Origin: Promethearchaeota archaeon
GTDB taxonomy: Archaea > Asgardarchaeota > Lokiarchaeia > Sigynarchaeales > SOKP01
Direction of reading: 5' to 3'
NCBI GenBank assembly: GCA_004524425.1
Contig: SDNN01000092.1
Location: 1 to 10,490 of the forward strand
DNA: 10,490 nucleotides
The translations under genes and the position numbers were made by a program. Below the pieces are notes generated by a model. That model ran no database searches. It was not told the origin of the DNA and worked only from the letters and a program-made list of their open reading frames with translations. The number at the start of each line of letters is the position of its first letter. The first letter of the stretch is position 1. Below, piece by piece: positions 418 to 10,490 of this stretch.

Positions 418-1878
418 TTATTCCTTGAGTTCTTCATATTGTTTCATGAATTCTTCAGGCTTCCATTGCGTTTCAATATATTTTGGAATACCTGAGCTGT
501 CTCGTGGTCCCACAACCACCCAGGCGTCGGCTTCATCTTCTAAAGCTCCACTTAACCTGGCAGCCATGCCGGGCAGGATTAAAATTCTATGATCAACCTT
601 GTCAAATGCCTTAAATTCTTTTGCAGCTTCTGCGATGGAACTTGCGTTGAATTGACCACCTGCAACGGCAGATTCAATTCCTATTCCTTCACTGTCTACA
701 ACTAAGAGATAACAGTCAAGATTTGCTCCTTTGAGATCCTGTTCAACTGGGATTTTTGTCATGCGGTAATTTGACGTTACAAAGATAGGAGCCATGGGTC
801 CGGGCTCACCAATTTCATAGAGGCCAGCATCAACAGCAGGATAGATTCTTGGATCTGAATATATTGTTTGTCGCATCGTCATTAAGGCTAACAAGCCCCA
901 TTTATCGTCTACATGACCTCCTGTATGAATTACTATCAAAGAAGTGGCGATAGAAATCATGATGGAGCCCATAATTATTTCCTGAAATTGATGACGCCAT
1001 AATTCATCCTTATTGCCTATTTCAACTTGAGTCCAATAGGAAGCAGGAACACCCATTACTGGCCAGCCAGCATTGGGATCCTCTTTATCAATCGCAGCAA
1101 TTCTTAATTGCATGATATCATCATACGTAAGTGTAATATTACCCGGGCCGAAAAAAGTACCTGGGTCTAAGACGATTTGATTTGAACCAAGTTTTTGTAA
1201 GGTTGCACTTAAGGATAATAATTCGTCTAAATTTGGAGAAGATGCAACTAATGGTAATTGGTTTTTTACAGCAAAAGTCCCAATTTTTTCCCAAGTATCT
1301 TTTGTTGCCGCATAGAGTAATGGTTTTTTGTCCTTGATTCCCTCTGCAGCAGCTAATAAAATATCGGGATTTAGACAGCAAAGCATTATTGGAAGACTGG
1401 AACTAGCACTAATTTTTTGAGCAGCACTTTTAAACTTGTCCGCATCTCCTGAGACACATCTCAATGCGATGCCATTTACCTCTAGTGTATCTCCAATTCT
1501 TTCAATCTTTAAATCATCTAAATATTTCGCTCGTTCTTCTAATTCGCTCTCTGATAAATCATCTGGAACTTCAGCGAAGATAGCTGTTTCATTATAAAAG
1601 GTTAACTGGTGCCTCATGAGAACTTCCTCCCCGCCAATGGTGACTTCCTTTTCACCTACTCCAATTCGAACAGGCTTCTGTGGAGGGGTAGTAATTTCTT
1701 TTAGTTTATTTAGATTTTTTCTTTGTTTCGGGTCTTGCATCAAATGAGTGCAATCTTCCAATCTAACCTTCCGTTCAAGCAGATCCGTTGCGTAGGCCAT
1801 GCAAGTGTCATAACCGCATTCTTTACAGTTGCTTTTATCTAGTAATGCGTATATATCTAAAGGTGAAGGTCTTGCCAT
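418..1878 (-). CDS. cdhE: Acetyl-CoA decarbonylase/synthase gamma subunit (corrinoid iron-sulfur protein large subunit)
   Basis: CdhE is the large subunit of the corrinoid iron-sulfur protein. It carries the cobalamin-bound methyl group between tetrahydro(methano/sarcina)pterin and acetyl-CoA synthase in the Wood-Ljungdahl pathway. At 486 residues it has the family's usual length. The N-terminus holds the [4Fe-4S] motif CX2CX4CX16C (C18, C21, C26, C43), within the typical KSNCKECGYDTCMAYA context. A TIM-barrel-like middle region follows (roughly 110-355). The C-terminal corrinoid-binding part has SNYRMT near 369, LLVVDSEGIGIES near 391 and PGMAARLSGAL near 436. The ATG is preceded by GGAG eight bases upstream and aligns with family N-termini. 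Its usual partner CdhD and the other CODH/ACS subunits are not in the window, so this copy stands alone. The identification is firm; direction of use (acetyl-CoA synthesis or breakdown) cannot be told. Confidence 0.95.
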   Translation of the reverse strand: MARPSPLDIYALLDKSNCKECGYDTCMAYATDLLERKVRLEDCTHLMQDPKQRKNLNKLKEITTPPQKPVRIGVGEKEVTIGGEEVLMRHQLTFYNETAIFAEVPDDLSESELEERAKYLDDLKIERIGDTLEVNGIALRCVSGDADKFKSAAQKISASSSLPIMLCCLNPDILLAAAEGIKDKKPLLYAATKDTWEKIGTFAVKNQLPLVASSPNLDELLSLSATLQKLGSNQIVLDPGTFFGPGNITLTYDDIMQLRIAAIDKEDPNAGWPVMGVPASYWTQVEIGNKDELWRHQFQEIIMGSIMISIATSLIVIHTGGHVDDKWGLLALMTMRQTIYSDPRIYPAVDAGLYEIGEPGPMAPIFVTSNYRMTKIPVEQDLKGANLDCYLLVVDSEGIGIESAVAGGQFNASSIAEAAKEFKAFDKVDHRILILPGMAARLSGALEDEADAWVVVGPRDSSGIPKYIETQWKPEEFMKQYEELKE

Positions 1879-3730: not shown

Positions 3731-4636
3731 ATGGTAGAAATATTAATCATAACCTCAACGGAAGACATAGCTTCAATCAATATTCGAAATAATCTATTGA
3801 ACTCAAAAAGTTGGGAATTTAGTGAACTTGATTTTACATGGCATGATAATGCATTATTTAAGCTTGATGAAATAAAGCTAGAAAAAGAGAAAGACTTTAA
3901 CCCGAACGTGAATAAGGTCTATTTAGGTTTAACGCACGATCCTTTGATTAATTTAGATAATTTAAGACTTGAGGATACGCAAATCAACCCCGATTCATTA
4001 ATATTTGCGAGTAGGCACCGATCCAAAACTTCTAAACCAGCTTTTTTAGTTCATACAACGGGTAATTGGAGCAGGGAGGCTAAGTTTGGAGGAGAGCCTC
4101 GAAGATTATCCCACTCGAGTGCCTTTCTCATAAAATCTGGTTTCATTTCTTTGGTAGAACAACATGAGTTATCAAATTTGAAAAAATTCTCAATTGACAT
4201 GGAAGTCACTCATCATGGTCCAACTGATTTAGAAAAACCATTGATATTTATTGAACTTGGAAGTAGCAAAAAAGAATGGGTCATTCAAGAGGCTGGAAGG
4301 GTGGTAGCTCAAGCAATAATTAACACGGTCTTGAATTATTTAAAATTACAACATGATGAAACTAGTAAAGTTGGATTAGGATTTGGGGGGACCCATTATG
4401 CACCACAGTTTAGAAAATTATCACTAAAAGAAGACATGGCAATATCCTTCATATGTCCAAAATATTATATTGAAGACTTAGATGAGACAATGATAGCCCA
4501 AATGATATCCAATACGCGGGAAGAAGTTGATTATTTCATTGTTGATTGGAAAGGAACCAATTCTCAAGAAAAAAGGCACCTTATTCCGCTTTTAGAAGAA
4601 TTTGAAATTCCCATTAAAAAATCTAAAGATTTCTAA
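3731..4636 (+). CDS. dtdA: D-aminoacyl-tRNA deacylase, archaeal DtdA (GEK1) type
   Basis: DtdA removes D-amino acids wrongly attached to tRNA (for example D-Tyr- or D-Asp-tRNA), freeing the tRNA for use; it is a cytosolic zinc enzyme found in archaea and plants. The 301 residues cover the whole family and carry its motifs in order: SRHRS (94-98), HTTGN (108-112), EVTHHGPT (158-165), IELGSSKKEW (174-183) and GFGGTHYAPQF (217-227). The conserved histidines in these motifs (H96, H108, H161, H162, H222) are the likely metal and catalytic positions. The N-terminus MVEILIITS is the usual first strand, supporting this ATG. The C-terminus ends in a short basic tail. The gene is single, divergent from the ZIP-like gene and converging on the winged-helix gene with a 27-bp gap. 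The identification is firm. Confidence 0.95.
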   Translation: MVEILIITSTEDIASINIRNNLLNSKSWEFSELDFTWHDNALFKLDEIKLEKEKDFNPNVNKVYLGLTHDPLINLDNLRLEDTQINPDSLIFASRHRSKTSKPAFLVHTTGNWSREAKFGGEPRRLSHSSAFLIKSGFISLVEQHELSNLKKFSIDMEVTHHGPTDLEKPLIFIELGSSKKEWVIQEAGRVVAQAIINTVLNYLKLQHDETSKVGLGFGGTHYAPQFRKLSLKEDMAISFICPKYYIEDLDETMIAQMISNTREEVDYFIVDWKGTNSQEKRHLIPLLEEFEIPIKKSKDF

Positions 4637-4663: not shown

Positions 4664-5584
4664 TCATTTCGTAGCTTCTTGAAGTTCTTCATAATATTTT
4701 ATTAGATTTTTAAATACATAATCCGCCGCGGAAAATCCTTGGGTGGCAGATCTCGATAAAATAGAATTTAGAAAATCACGATGCGGTGTTTTTTCATCTA
4801 AGGTGACATTTAATTCTCGAATATTGTAAAAACTTCTCCAAAATTGAGTTGGCCAATCAATTAATGGACGCAACGTTTTATTATAGCTCTCTTTACCTTT
4901 AGGGCTTAATTTTAGTTCCTTTTTTAAATTATAGAAGAAGGTATCATCTTTTTTAGAGATCGAAATAATACCTTCATTTTCGATTTCTTTCATGATAGTC
5001 CTTATTCTTGGGAGAGAGAGATTTTTTATTTTCAGTTTCTTCATGTTTTCAAGAATATCTTTATCTTTTTGACCATTCATCTTAATTAATAAATAATTTC
5101 TAGCCATGATATTGTATTTAGTAGGGACTGAATCATGGTCCATCATGTTATACTGTACTAAATTTCCTAATATCTCTCTTGCAACCAAATATTTAAGAAT
5201 AAGTTGATCTTTTTTGGAGAAATCTTTTTTAAATAATTCAGAATCAAAATATGAATTATATAATGTTTCTAATAGAGATTTGATGGTGTAAAAGCCGTCA
5301 ACTAAACAAGCCTCAACATTATTTAATAGTTCAATTCGATATTTTATATCTTGTTTAAATTTCTCCTTATCTATCCTAATTTTCCTTACTGAATGGGGAG
5401 ATTGAGTGAGTGATGTGAAGTATTCTTTCCATTTATTCATGAATCTTGAACCTTGAGTATTTGCGATTGATGCAAGTTTACCTATCACATCAGAAAGTTT
5501 ATCAATAAATTCTTTTTCACTAACTTCAGTCATTAATTTTAACCAATTATAAAAGATTTCTTTTTTGGATAAAAAATCAATCAA
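4664..5584 (-). CDS. Uncharacterised protein with predicted winged-helix domain
   Basis: I do not recognise this 306-residue soluble, mostly helical, lysine-rich protein. Residues 1-170 are predicted alpha-helical with no motif I can name. Residues about 173-235 read like a winged helix-turn-helix: helix, then LSLPRIRTIMKEIENEGII (189-207) as the helix pair with recognition helix, then strand IISISKKDDTFFYNLK as the wing, then LSPKGKESYNKTL. The pattern of an 'EGII' turn followed by a charged wing and 'LSPKGKE' is common in archaeal DNA-binding regulators. The C-terminus has WPTQFWRSFYNIRELNVTL (244-262) and a final helical segment. Another in-frame Met is at residue 18, but the first ATG is kept because the frame before it looks helical and continuous. 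It lies 74 bp behind the aminotransferase on the same strand and could be co-transcribed. Function is open. Confidence 0.55.
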   Translation of the reverse strand: MIDFLSKKEIFYNWLKLMTEVSEKEFIDKLSDVIGKLASIANTQGSRFMNKWKEYFTSLTQSPHSVRKIRIDKEKFKQDIKYRIELLNNVEACLVDGFYTIKSLLETLYNSYFDSELFKKDFSKKDQLILKYLVAREILGNLVQYNMMDHDSVPTKYNIMARNYLLIKMNGQKDKDILENMKKLKIKNLSLPRIRTIMKEIENEGIISISKKDDTFFYNLKKELKLSPKGKESYNKTLRPLIDWPTQFWRSFYNIRELNVTLDEKTPHRDFLNSILSRSATQGFSAADYVFKNLIKYYEELQEATK

Positions 5585-5658: not shown

Positions 5659-6849
5659 TCACTGTGAAATTTCGTGAATTACTTCCAAGACTTTATTTAC
5701 TTGATTGTCATTTATCAAGAGAGGAGGAAGAAGTCTAATAACCGTTAAACCCGCATTGAGCATTAAAACACGTAATTCTTCAGCTTTATTAATTAAATCT
5801 CTAACTTTTGTCCTATATTCTATACCTATCATTAAACCTTTACCCCTAACGGTTCTTATTATATCAGCCTCTCCCTCTAATTTATTTAAACTTGCAAGCA
5901 TTTTGGCCCCTTGTTTAGCGGAATTCTCTACGAGATTCTCTTCCTGTATTATTTCAATTACCGCATTTGCTGCCGCACATGCAATTGGATTTCCTCCATA
6001 AGTAGTTCCATGTTCTCCATCAAGGAATTTATCATACAATTCTTCGGAAGCGACAGTTGCTCCCATGGGAAGCCCTCCTGCTATCGCTTTAGCCAAGCAT
6101 AAAATATCTGGCGTAATATCATAATGTTCAAATGCGAACATCTTTCCAGTTCTTCCAAAACCCGTCTGAACCTCATCTATCACCAAAATTAAATCTTTTT
6201 CATCACACAATTCTCGCAATTCTTTTGGGAATTCATCAGGTACTGGGTGTATGCCTCCTTCACCTTGGATTAGCTCGCAAAAAATTGCAACCGTGTTATC
6301 ATTGACTAATTCCTTTACGGAATCTATATCACCATGAGAAGCAAATTTAACATTTTTACTCAACCATGGTAAGAACGGTTTCCGATATTTCATGTGATGA
6401 GTCATGGCAAGAGATCCTAACGTTCTTCCGTGAAAATCTCTCTTAAAAGCGATTACTTCTGGTTTATTATTATCTCTGTTTGCTGCTAATACTATTTTTA
6501 ACGCAGTTTCGATAGATTCTGTTCCGCTATTGCATAAAAATGACTGTGTTAATGATTTTGGGGTAATATCGGCCAATTTTTTCAAAATTTTTGCTCGTTC
6601 TTCTACGGGAAATCCTGGGGGCACCATCACTAAATTATCTAGTTGTTTCTTAACAGCCTCGATATATTTCGGATGACTATGACCAATATTTAATACTGCA
6701 TGTCCAGCTACACAATCGATATATTCGTTCCCTTTTTCATCATATAAAATTGCACCTTTCCCTTTGGTCGCAACGAATTTACGTTTTGAAAACAGCTTGG
6801 TATGGTGCGCTTTTTCAATATCTATTAAATTAGAATAATAATCAGGCAT
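5659..6849 (-). CDS. argD: Acetylornithine / [LysW]-aminoadipate semialdehyde aminotransferase (class III PLP)
   Basis: A PLP-dependent class III aminotransferase that uses glutamate as amino donor, acting in arginine synthesis (ArgD) or lysine synthesis on the carrier protein LysW (LysJ); archaeal members often do both. The 396 residues match the family length. Visible sites: NSGTES (107-112) and FHGRT (139-143) for cofactor and substrate, the D225 that binds the pyridine nitrogen in IDEVQTGFGRTG, the Schiff-base lysine about K254 in LAKAIAGGLPMGA, and GEHGTTYGGNP further on. The segments EYIDCVAGHAVLNIGH and AGLTVIRLLPPLLI resemble LysJ proteins closely, so a lysine role is as likely as arginine. 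No other arg, lys or LysW gene is in the window. A TTTAAATT element (6871-6878, minus) lies about 25 bases before the ATG, with no Shine-Dalgarno. The family is firm; the ArgD or LysJ choice is open. Confidence 0.88.
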   Translation of the reverse strand: MPDYYSNLIDIEKAHHTKLFSKRKFVATKGKGAILYDEKGNEYIDCVAGHAVLNIGHSHPKYIEAVKKQLDNLVMVPPGFPVEERAKILKKLADITPKSLTQSFLCNSGTESIETALKIVLAANRDNNKPEVIAFKRDFHGRTLGSLAMTHHMKYRKPFLPWLSKNVKFASHGDIDSVKELVNDNTVAIFCELIQGEGGIHPVPDEFPKELRELCDEKDLILVIDEVQTGFGRTGKMFAFEHYDITPDILCLAKAIAGGLPMGATVASEELYDKFLDGEHGTTYGGNPIACAAANAVIEIIQEENLVENSAKQGAKMLASLNKLEGEADIIRTVRGKGLMIGIEYRTKVRDLINKAEELRVLMLNAGLTVIRLLPPLLINDNQVNKVLEVIHEISQ

Positions 6850-7018: not shown

Positions 7019-7813
7019 ATGATTTCTCAATATTACATGATAAGGGTGTTTACTCCTTTTTTTTACACGTTAGAATTCTTGATAGCTATTATTGTATTTA
7101 TTTTCAGTTTATATTTTTACGTTAAACGTATCGATCGCAACTCTCTCTTAGTTTTTTTAATAGTGGGAATGATAAATAGCGGGGTGGAATTATTATTACA
7201 GGGGATAGGAATAAGAGTGGTTGAGAATGCGTGTTTATTTTCATTGCCTATTGGTTTTCCTTTTATTGCCTTCATTCTGGGATTTTATGAAGGTGGAGTA
7301 AAAACTCTTTTAGCTTATCATTTTGTCAAATTCATAATCGATAAGAAGAGGTATAATGAATTATTTTTATCCTTTCTCGTAATCATTGTATTTATTCCCT
7401 TTTTTATTTATTCAATAGTTTCAGCTACGCAAATTGGAGAAGGAACGACAAACATAACAATTACCGTGAGAGATATGCTTGCACCCTTATCAATTTTTTT
7501 ATTAATACTTGCGTTTATTTTAAGCATTTCATATTTTATTCTTAATGAAAGCATTCCTAAGGAAAGGAAAATGACATTGCTCTATTATGAATTTGGTGTG
7601 GTTGTATACTTATTAATTTGGATGGTCCCCCTTCATGTATTCCTTCAACGTTATATTGGAATATTTCAGAACAATAATTATATTCCAGCAAGTATTGTAG
7701 AGCAAATTTTATTCATGTACGTCTATTTTCTTTTTTTTGAAGGTGTTGGCGTAAACATCATAATGTATCCAATAATTTATCATTTTAAATTAATTGAATT
7801 CGAAAATTTATAG
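7019..7813 (+). CDS. Uncharacterised seven-helix membrane protein
   Basis: I do not recognise this 264-residue protein. It has about seven membrane helices: 15-35, 42-62, 75-106 (long or kinked), 114-135, 152-175, 188-209 and 226-256. Loops are short, with KRIDR (36-40) and DKKR (108-111) as positively charged segments that would sit in the cytoplasm. There is no large soluble domain and no known catalytic motif. Several charged residues fall inside or at the edge of helices: E56 in GMINSGVELLLQG, E90 and K94 in GFYEGGVKTLLAYH, E190, H205 and E240 in FFEGVGVN. Buried charges of this kind suggest a transport path, a ligand site or helix contacts. It converges on the small four-helix gene with a 79-bp gap. 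The start is supported by the TATA element 27 bases upstream. Function is unknown. Confidence 0.6.
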   Translation: MISQYYMIRVFTPFFYTLEFLIAIIVFIFSLYFYVKRIDRNSLLVFLIVGMINSGVELLLQGIGIRVVENACLFSLPIGFPFIAFILGFYEGGVKTLLAYHFVKFIIDKKRYNELFLSFLVIIVFIPFFIYSIVSATQIGEGTTNITITVRDMLAPLSIFLLILAFILSISYFILNESIPKERKMTLLYYEFGVVVYLLIWMVPLHVFLQRYIGIFQNNNYIPASIVEQILFMYVYFLFFEGVGVNIIMYPIIYHFKLIEFENL

Positions 7814-8919: not shown

Positions 8920-9711
8920 GTGCCCAAAACGCCAAAATCATGTATTTTTAAAATTATCATGGGAGGGTCTGCAAAATCAGGAAAGACTACCTTTCTAAAC
9001 GGAACTTATTTTCCTTACAATGAGGAAGAATTTTTTCACATTGGTGTAAGCTTTAAACTAATTGATTGTTTAGTTAATAATGAAGACACTTATTTACTAC
9101 AGATCTGGGATTTTAAAGTCATGAATCAATTTAGGTGCTTGTATCCAAGCTTTTGCAAGGGGGCTAAAGGAGCTCTTTTATGTTTTGACGTGACTGACCG
9201 TGAATCTTTTAATGAATTGCATTATTGGATCAAGATCATTCGAAAAATTTCAGGAAAGATTCCCATAATTTTAATTGGTACCAAAAATGAATTAAATAGA
9301 ATTATCACCGACGAAGAAATTGATGATTTAATGGAGATGTATCAAATAAATGGAATATTTTTCACCTCACTTGATGATTTAAATCGTGAAAATGTATTTA
9401 AAGAGCTAATATCACAGATGTCGAATATCTCCCAAATTTCTAAATTTAACATATTTTTACCCGAGTTCGATAAGGATTTTGAGAAATTTATCGATTATTT
9501 CTCCATATGCGTATTATGTGGTCGAAAATTACATTTTAATTATCTGAAGAGATTTTATTATAGCACTAATCAAACCAAGCAAAGGTTAAGAGCAAAACTC
9601 ATTGAATTAATGGAAATGTCGAATGAGTTTGATGATTTATTTTATCATCACATCGATTTTGGAATTCCATGCTGTAAGTGTTATGAACTGATTTTTAAAG
9701 ACAATCAATAG
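8920..9711 (+). CDS. Divergent Ras-like small GTPase with C-terminal Cys-pair (zinc-ribbon-like) extension
   Basis: A 263-residue protein starting with GTG. Residues 9-170 follow the Ras/Rab fold: P-loop GGSAKSGKTT (15-24), switch I HIGVSF (40-45), strand LLQIWD (59-64), FDVTDRESF (89-97), LIGTKNEL (118-125) and FFTS (147-150). Key changes: the switch I threonine is replaced by H40; the switch II motif normally reading DTAGQ is D64-F-K-V-M, so both the glycine and the catalytic glutamine are gone; the guanine motif is TKNE, not [NT]KxD. The C-terminal 70 residues carry CVLCGRKLH (197-205) and GIPCCKCYELIF (248-259), a probable zinc site of two CxxC pairs (C197/C200, C251/C254). There is no prenylation signal. 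It is the first of two tandem paralogues. It probably binds nucleotide, but fast GTP hydrolysis looks unlikely. Family firm, role unknown. Confidence 0.85.
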   Translation: MPKTPKSCIFKIIMGGSAKSGKTTFLNGTYFPYNEEEFFHIGVSFKLIDCLVNNEDTYLLQIWDFKVMNQFRCLYPSFCKGAKGALLCFDVTDRESFNELHYWIKIIRKISGKIPIILIGTKNELNRIITDEEIDDLMEMYQINGIFFTSLDDLNRENVFKELISQMSNISQISKFNIFLPEFDKDFEKFIDYFSICVLCGRKLHFNYLKRFYYSTNQTKQRLRAKLIELMEMSNEFDDLFYHHIDFGIPCCKCYELIFKDNQ

Positions 9712-9873
9712 TATTTCTATTTTTCACGATTCAAAAGTAATTATCAATGAATCATTTTTTTTAGTTTGACAATTATCATGATTGGGATATCAATATCATA
9801 AACTTTTTTAATAGGAATTTTCATGTAAGTTTTGAGGTTTATTATTGATAATCTTACGCATTTTTTATGAACC
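9712..9873. other. Intergenic gap between the two GTPase genes
   Basis: This gap is 162 bp and A+T rich, with T-runs at about 9756-9762 and 9804-9809 that may end the first GTPase transcript. A TTTATTATT element (9838-9846) is centred about 32 bases before the ATG of the second GTPase and may be its TATA box. A nine-base inverted repeat lies here: ATTATCAAT (9740-9748) and ATTGATAAT (9844-9852). No Shine-Dalgarno is seen before the ATG at 9874. An open frame on the other strand (9744-9956) runs into the P-loop of the second GTPase and is a shadow. Confidence 0.35.
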
Positions 9874-10490
9874 ATGTCTAAAACATACAAATTAAAAATG
9901 GTCATAGGAGGAGCCTCAGGTTCTGGAAAGACTTCATTTCTCCTGGGAAAACCCACTCTTGAAGTCGACTATGGCAATCTGGGTGTCTCTTTCAAACCAG
10001 TTGAGGTCATCATAAATGATGATGATACCTATCAATTTATCATGTGGGACTTAAAAACAAAGAATAATTTCAAATTTTTATATCCAACTTTTTGTAGGGG
10101 GGCCTCAGGAGCTTTTTTATGTTTTGATATAAATGATCATCAATCATTTGAAGAGTTACCCTTTTGGATTAACATAGTTCGTAAAAATGCGATTATTGAG
10201 GATTTTAAAATTCCGATCATTTTGATAGGAACCAAAACAGATTTGAATAATCGTGAAGTTTCTGACGATGAAATTCATCAATTAATGCAACAGCATGATC
10301 TAGACGATGTATTTTTTATATCAATCCACGATGAGGATAAAAAACAAAAGAAAGTGAGCATATTCAAATCATTAATTGAAAAAATACAACCATTTTACCA
10401 GATCGAGGATATATCCATCTTTATCCCGAGAGAAGATAATGAATTTAAAGAATTTCTTCATGCCTTTTCAAATTGCATTATTTGTGGAAA
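9874..10490 (+). CDS. Divergent Ras-like small GTPase, tandem paralogue (3' partial)
   Basis: The gene starts at ATG 9874 and runs off the window after 205 complete codons. It is a paralogue of the gene just upstream: P-loop GGASGSGKTS (12-21), switch I NLGVSF (35-40), FIMWDLKTKNNFKFLYPTF (55-73), GAFLCFDINDHQSF (79-92), LIGTKTDL (117-124) and FFISI (147-151). As in its neighbour, the switch I threonine is lost (N35 here) and DTAGQ is replaced (D59-L-K-T-K). Unlike its neighbour, the guanine motif TKTD is intact. The last visible residues, CIICGK (201-206, final codon incomplete), match the first Cys pair of the neighbour's C-terminal extension, so a full gene should carry the second pair beyond the window. 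The shared phrases YPxFCxGAxGAxLCFD and SFxEL show a tandem duplication that has since diverged widely. Confidence 0.85.
   Translation, partial: MSKTYKLKMVIGGASGSGKTSFLLGKPTLEVDYGNLGVSFKPVEVIINDDDTYQFIMWDLKTKNNFKFLYPTFCRGASGAFLCFDINDHQSFEELPFWINIVRKNAIIEDFKIPIILIGTKTDLNNREVSDDEIHQLMQQHDLDDVFFISIHDEDKKQKKVSIFKSLIEKIQPFYQIEDISIFIPREDNEFKEFLHAFSNCIICG

Follow-up and report, generated by a model that had tools for sequence, protein, structure and literature searches.

The window analysed here, a stretch of 10,490 nucleotides at the start of contig SDNN01000092.1 (assembly GCA_004524425.1) of a Promethearchaeota archaeon, carries at its end two adjoining open reading frames (ORFs) on the forward strand that encode Ras-like guanosine triphosphatases (GTPases) of an atypical kind. 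The first, copy 1, is complete; the second, copy 2, is cut off by the window end. An earlier note on this DNA had described a tandem pair lacking both the switch I threonine and the switch II DTAGQ, with intact P-loops, the GVSF of switch I and the WD of the G3 strand all retained. Each of these observations is borne out in both copies, whose features are as follows.

8920..9711, forward strand: copy 1, atypical Rab-like GTPase with a C-terminal cysteine-rich domain; complete ORF of 263 amino acids with a GTG start
8965..8988, forward strand: copy 1 P-loop GSAKSGKT, residues 16-23
9025..9054, forward strand: copy 1 switch I region EEFFHIGVSF, residues 36-45, from alignments to Rab11
9106..9123, forward strand: copy 1 G3 WDFKVM in place of WDTAGQ, residues 63-68, from alignments to Rab11
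9277..9294, forward strand: copy 1 G4 GTKNEL, residues 120-125, with TKxE replacing the usual TKxD
9439..9708, forward strand: copy 1 C-terminal helical cysteine domain, residues 174-263, from AlphaFold2 (AF2), Pfam and Foldseek
9508..9519, forward strand: copy 1 first cysteine pair, C197-V-L-C200, from the family alignment
9661..9681, forward strand: copy 1 second cysteine cluster GIPCCKC, residues 248-254, where the last helix begins, from the family alignment and DSSP
9874..10488, forward strand: copy 2, paralogous atypical GTPase, 205 amino acids visible, from the ORF, the Pfam Ras match and clade placement
9910..9933, forward strand: copy 2 P-loop GASGSGKT
9964..9993, forward strand: copy 2 switch I region VDYGNLGVSF, with Asn35 at the Mg2+-binding Thr position, from alignment to copy 1
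10045..10062, forward strand: copy 2 G3 WDLKTK in place of WDTAGQ, from alignment to copy 1
10228..10245, forward strand: copy 2 G4 GTKTDL, a canonical TKxD
10474..10485, forward strand: copy 2 first cysteine pair CIIC, close to the window end, from alignment to copy 1

Both proteins have Rab-like G domains. Ras (PF00071) is the best Pfam match, at 74.1 bits for copy 1 and 65.8 bits for copy 2 against a curated cut-off of 21.6, while the best matches among Protein Data Bank sequences are Rabs and the AF2 prediction for copy 1 (mean predicted local distance difference test score, pLDDT, 88.2) finds its best fold matches in Rab and Ran. The two copies share 44% identity across 210 columns. In copy 1, His40 occupies the position of the Mg2+-binding threonine of Rab and Ras. 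The WDTAGQ of Rab11 aligns gap-free with copy 1 and with the family profile, and the alignment of copy 2 to copy 1 has no gap at G3. The claim that loop length is unchanged, the motifs having been substituted and not deleted, thus stands for switch II; for switch I it is only approximate, as the stretch ahead of IGVSF differs by a few residues between subfamilies. The idea that G3 has been relocated elsewhere in the protein is unsupported, given the gapless Rab11 alignments across it.

Relatives were gathered by the words that they share with the query. The search with copy 1 gave 135 matches, the best 120 of which were used, and the search with copy 2 gave 35. Among the 155 proteins collected (cited here by P numbers), 141 match the GIPCCxC tail pattern, and the resulting family alignment has 142 rows, both window copies included; counts out of 142 refer to it. 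P0105, P0111, P0114, P0115, P0116, P0150, P0151, P0152 and P0153 were left out of this alignment and of the 146-row tree. The first seven are truncated or end in unrelated sequence, and their visible G3 reads WD or WE without GQ. P0117-P0120, P0152 and P0153, set aside from the motif counts in an earlier tally, all carry WDFGGQ or WDTAGQ, and none has the tail. Family rows that were compared are 34-66% identical to copy 1. The organisms named, for a minority of the proteins, among the relatives listed are Promethearchaeota, Lokiarchaeota, Hermodarchaeota and Thorarchaeota. Several relatives (P0010, P0017, P0070 and others) start at an internal methionine before the P-loop (MGGSA, MVIGG), where others begin MPKSYKLK; such starts are probably miscalled GTG or TTG starts.

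Across this family, the parts needed to sense the gamma-phosphate and to hydrolyse it, namely the switch I Thr, the G3 Gly and the G3 Gln, are each absent except in one or two rows. DxxGQ occurs in 0 of 142 rows. DxxG, and with it the glycine equivalent to Ras Gly60, is found in two (P0032 and P0036) and the G3 glutamine in one (P0049), never in the same protein. The switch I threonine position holds Pro in 58 rows, His in 32, Gln in 20, Ser in 12, Asn in 11 and Thr in a single row. Homologues with a restored DTAGQ, which the earlier note had set against its own claim, did not appear: none of the 141 tail-bearing proteins has a canonical G3. P0038, the sole match to a loose regular expression, was rejected as a canonical member because the match sits in its G4 loop. 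In the 146-row tree the four tailless canonical GTPases, P0117-P0120, split off with a Shimodaira-Hasegawa-like approximate likelihood ratio test (SH-aLRT) value of 99. Since the same motif state runs through the whole family, it is not the product of chance. Nor does it look like decay. Loss of the catalytic motifs in both window copies is what one would expect if an ordinary Asgard Rab had been duplicated and the functionless copies were decaying, yet the loss is common to rows as distant as those compared here, in which the cysteines and a hydrophobic triad remain invariant. We find that explanation scarcely credible for the two copies, and conservation across 142 rows refutes it for the family. 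The inference of an atypical Asgard GTPase family under selection is accordingly supported.

The nucleotide pocket has fared differently, and its P-loop, Walker-B Asp and TKxD are kept in most members. P-loop residues Gly16, Gly21 and Lys22 occur in 140, 135 and 139 of 142 rows; for comparison, the most common residue at a position has a mean frequency of 0.61 across residues 8-169. G3 is mostly WD[LF]K, and its aspartate (Ras Asp57, Walker-B) is present in 135 of 142 rows. A strict test of the pocket (intact P-loop, G4 KxD and Asp57) is passed by 96 of 142 rows and failed by 46, copy 1 failing solely through its TKxE. Judged from these residues, most members probably still bind a nucleotide as a structural ligand. 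A pseudoGTPase of class i, a pure scaffold that holds no nucleotide and whose P-loop serves the fold alone, would account for the 46 failures and for the three clades eroded in the P-loop or G4. However, the P-loop conservation points to a pocket that most members still use, and part of the 46 failures are mild, such as the E for D in the G4 of copy 1; we rate this reading as distinctly unlikely.

The same intact pockets could serve enzymes that still cycle. K66 of copy 1, at the position of Ras Ala59 and so expected to lie next to the phosphates, might stand in for Mg2+, Thr35 or Gln61, with a partner controlling hydrolysis or exchange as may happen in the RGK proteins (Rad/Gem/Rem). This position is Lys in 124 of 142 rows and Asn in 17, well above the conservation of the two positions that follow, and the pocket is fully intact in the 96 rows that pass the strict test. 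RGK proteins, too, are classed as retaining activity without a DxxG (PMC5593906, PMC4081519). Against such cycling stand the near-total loss of the Gly60 and Thr35 equivalents, the 17 rows with Asn in place of Lys, and the several lineages that retain the architecture with a broken P-loop or G4. It seems to us an unlikely alternative.

The eroded side lineages include one clade of 22 rows (P0063, P0066 and P0073 among them), which has Asn at the P-loop Ser/Thr, and in 21 of the 22 also Asn at the G4 Asp. These changes resemble Ras S17N and Ras D119N, and the latter shifts Ras toward xanthine nucleotides. In this clade the nucleotide could have been lost, or its base changed. Elsewhere the P-loop is broken in P0069 and P0081, the region is absent in P0113, and G4 is altered in P0046, P0057, P0070, P0154 and P0155. 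The joint change of P-loop Asn and G4 Asp loss was found as two independent pairs only and has no significance. All eroded members retain the tail, and at least three lineages have been eroded in the P-loop or G4 with the triad and the cysteines still kept.

The triad is the part of a Rab that partners read, and here it is almost untouched. All 142 rows have F45 (the first triad position, at the end of the switch I region) and W63; at position 78, 140 rows have Phe and two have Tyr. By alignment to Rab11, these correspond to the Rab triad of F, W and Y, with Phe for Tyr being a conservative exchange. In Rab23, the triad of Phe46, Trp63 and Tyr78 is described as important for effector binding, Thr41 is placed close to Mg2+ and the nucleotide, and Gly67 contacts the gamma-phosphate through its main-chain NH (PMC11730874). 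The positions matching Thr41 and Gly67 are those lost in the family. The switching chemistry has thus gone while the face read by partners has been kept, and this contrast is the chief reason to propose that the proteins are scaffolds fixed in one state.

The second shared feature is the cysteine tail. Its CxxC occurs in 142 of 142 rows, the cysteines of GIPCCxC in all 140 rows that reach that region (the other two being gaps), and His205 in 134 of 142. The cysteine pair guessed at in the earlier note is therefore real and nearly invariant across the family, though the second cluster of copy 2 lies beyond the window end. AF2 predicts the copy 1 tail with a mean pLDDT of 86.9 as helices, with no strand of three or more residues, and DSSP places the second cluster at a helix start. 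The tail of copy 1 and five full-length relatives matched no tail Pfam family above cut-off. In the same six proteins a roadblock domain gave no Pfam match at an expect value (E) limit of 10, a setting at which the filters of HMMER still remove the majority of very weak matches, and Foldseek with the copy 1 tail returned nothing significant (best E 2.5). The copy 1 protein ends in IFKDNQ, without the prenylation cysteines of Rabs, and a cysteine falls within the last four residues in only 8 of 141 tailed proteins. Probably the tail binds a metal and serves for docking or dimerisation. It might instead be the working part of the protein, a Zn or Fe-S (iron-sulphur) domain that is an enzyme or has nucleic acid as its target, the G domain being reduced to a dimer platform. 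The invariant cysteines, the conserved His205 and the lack of a Pfam family over cut-off would suit such a role; this reading we consider quite improbable.

Trees place the window copies in two separate paralogue clades. In a 54-row tree, with rows chosen from the 146 and the motif columns omitted, the copy-2 clade comprises 15 rows (support 99/95) and the copy-1 clade 16 relatives together with P0034, P0035 and P0036 (99/96; the 16 alone 89/71). In the 146-row tree the corresponding clades hold 26 rows (SH-aLRT 99) and 33 rows (SH-aLRT 83). On this sequence evidence, the two genes are members of distinct clades. Further, the longest contigs are equal in size within each of the pairs P0017/P0141 (4631 bases), P0013/P0142 (7247 bases) and P0020/P0146 (21913 bases), which suggests three further contigs with one member of each clade. 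P0017 and P0020 pair in the 146-row tree (SH-aLRT 92) and are unresolved in the 54-row tree, while P0141 and P0146 group together in either tree (94; 85/95). Perhaps the two paralogues form a heteromer.

Taken together, we favour, with a probability of about 0.58, an Asgard pseudoGTPase family derived from Rab-like GTPases, with a fixed effector face, a structural nucleotide and a metal-binding tail, whose tandem pair is possibly heteromeric. The G domain would no longer toggle. GDP or GTP (guanosine di- or triphosphate) would sit in the pocket in a structural role, some lineages having no nucleotide there at all, and the Rab effector face would be permanently displayed as a result. The cysteine domain would bind a metal, most likely Zn, and act as a docking or dimerisation module. 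The tandem paralogues may act as a heteromer, comparable to some septin monomers or Rag pairs, which is the weakest step. A bolder version makes the pair an ancient Asgard pseudoGTPase heterodimer, in which the conserved Lys at Ras position 59, next to the phosphates, does the work of Mg2+ and of the switch residues. With its nucleotide locked in as a structural ligand, its Rab effector face always on and a new metal-binding tail as anchor, such a dimer would give the Asgard GTPase network a constitutive scaffold arm, and the nucleotide itself would later have been lost repeatedly. This we hold to be doubtful.

Several points weigh against the favoured reading. Binding may never have been important, given the motifs lost in side lineages. 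The serine found at the switch I position in 12 rows might still bind Mg2+, and the TKxE of copy 1 may weaken guanine recognition. The shared-word search, in which the best 120 of 135 matches were used, could have overlooked a tailed member with canonical motifs. RGK proteins are tabulated as retaining activity despite the missing DxxG (PMC5593906), so hydrolysis by way of other residues is possible. With respect to the pair, among proteins with a longest contig of more than 4 kb a partner was seen for only 4 of 11 in the copy-1 clade and 4 of 14 in the copy-2 clade, the window counted, and P0124 lies on a contig of 1,276,219 bases without a partner among the matches listed. With pairs on few contigs and most long contigs without one, the tandem arrangement looks old but not universal.

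The family shares with Rabs, including the Asgard Thor-Rab, the G-domain fold, P-loop, IGVxF, G3-strand tryptophan, triad positions and, in most rows, TKxD; it differs in lacking the switch I Thr and DxxGQ, in having no terminal cysteines in copy 1 and in its extra cysteine domain. Thor-Rab itself binds nucleotide and hydrolyses it similarly to Rab11B (PMC10933270). The poorly conserved switch I and a G3 other than DxxG recall RGK proteins and other pseudoGTPases. RGK membership was nevertheless rejected, since the G3 of RGK proteins is DXWE (PMC4081519) and the copies have DFKV and DLKT, the third position being K or N in 141 of 142 rows. The family is also set apart by the prevailing WD[LF]K, the cysteine tail and named relatives that are all Asgard; the resemblance is likely convergence rather than kinship. 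Septins polymerise and form a separate branch of GTPases. Their paralogue set, like this family, has lost GTPase motifs repeatedly and independently, a pattern that the authors of that study link to hetero-oligomer interfaces (PMC10731463). With the Rag/Gtr heterodimers, among them the Rag-like operon pair of the Asgard archaeon MK-D1, which is predicted to join via roadblock domains (PMC10933270), the window shares an arrangement of neighbouring paralogous small GTPases with an extra domain. The family's tail, in contrast, is helical with CxxC and GIPCCxC, its switch motifs are lost and only tandem paralogy is seen. Rag/Gtr membership was rejected in the absence of a C-terminal roadblock domain, judged from Pfam and the predicted helical tail.

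A description of the family was not found among the papers listed from the open literature on Asgard and archaeal GTPases, RGK proteins and pseudoGTPases, IFT22 and the Rab triad, covered through titles and abstract openings, with most subscription journals and bioRxiv outside that scope. Small GTPases are very numerous in Asgard genomes. MK-D1 is reported to have 74 GTPases, of which 35 consist of a single domain and 26 carry a roadblock or longin domain, and a figure legend of the same paper names architectures with domains of unknown function (PMC10933270), among which the family could lie unnamed. We regard it as real, conserved and undescribed within the searchable literature, and as a pseudoGTPase rather than a new kind of protein. 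Asgard small GTPases are usually regarded as forerunners of eukaryotic switches. If the effector face was kept but the switch dropped, the number of Asgard 'GTPases' would be too high a measure of switching capacity, and pseudoGTPase scaffolds would predate the eukaryotic ones or have arisen in parallel. In combining members with intact pockets, members with broken P-loops and tandem paralogues under one common tail, the family also provides a natural test set.

Searches for a mobile or viral origin were negative: P0124 found nothing by tblastn among 50,697 phage and 72,556 plasmid records, and none of the 77 pattern matches on viral contigs proved to be a relative. One locus on a Diapherotrites metagenome-assembled genome contig (L001, 10001-10222) has 35% identity to copy 1 residues 166-238. 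It is probably a chance match; P0124 has no match in that genome.

In the remainder of the window, no RNA genes were found by Rfam at gathering thresholds or by ARAGORN. Two ORFs had no Pfam match at an E limit of 1, one of 306 amino acids (4664-5584, reverse strand) and one of 264 (7019-7813, forward strand), the latter hydrophobic and probably a membrane protein. Pfam identifies a carbon monoxide dehydrogenase/acetyl-CoA (coenzyme A) synthase delta-type protein with an Fe-S domain (418-1878, reverse strand; 346.6 bits), a D-aminoacyl-tRNA deacylase (3731-4636, forward strand; 208.4 bits) and a class III aminotransferase (5659-6849, reverse strand; 392.3 bits). Longin proteins are named among GTPase regulators (PMC10933270), and a 141-amino-acid protein at 2111-2536 on the reverse strand, about 6 kb from the GTPases, weakly resembles the first longin domain of FUZ/MON1/HPS1, its 25.6 bits falling just short of the cut-off of 26.1.
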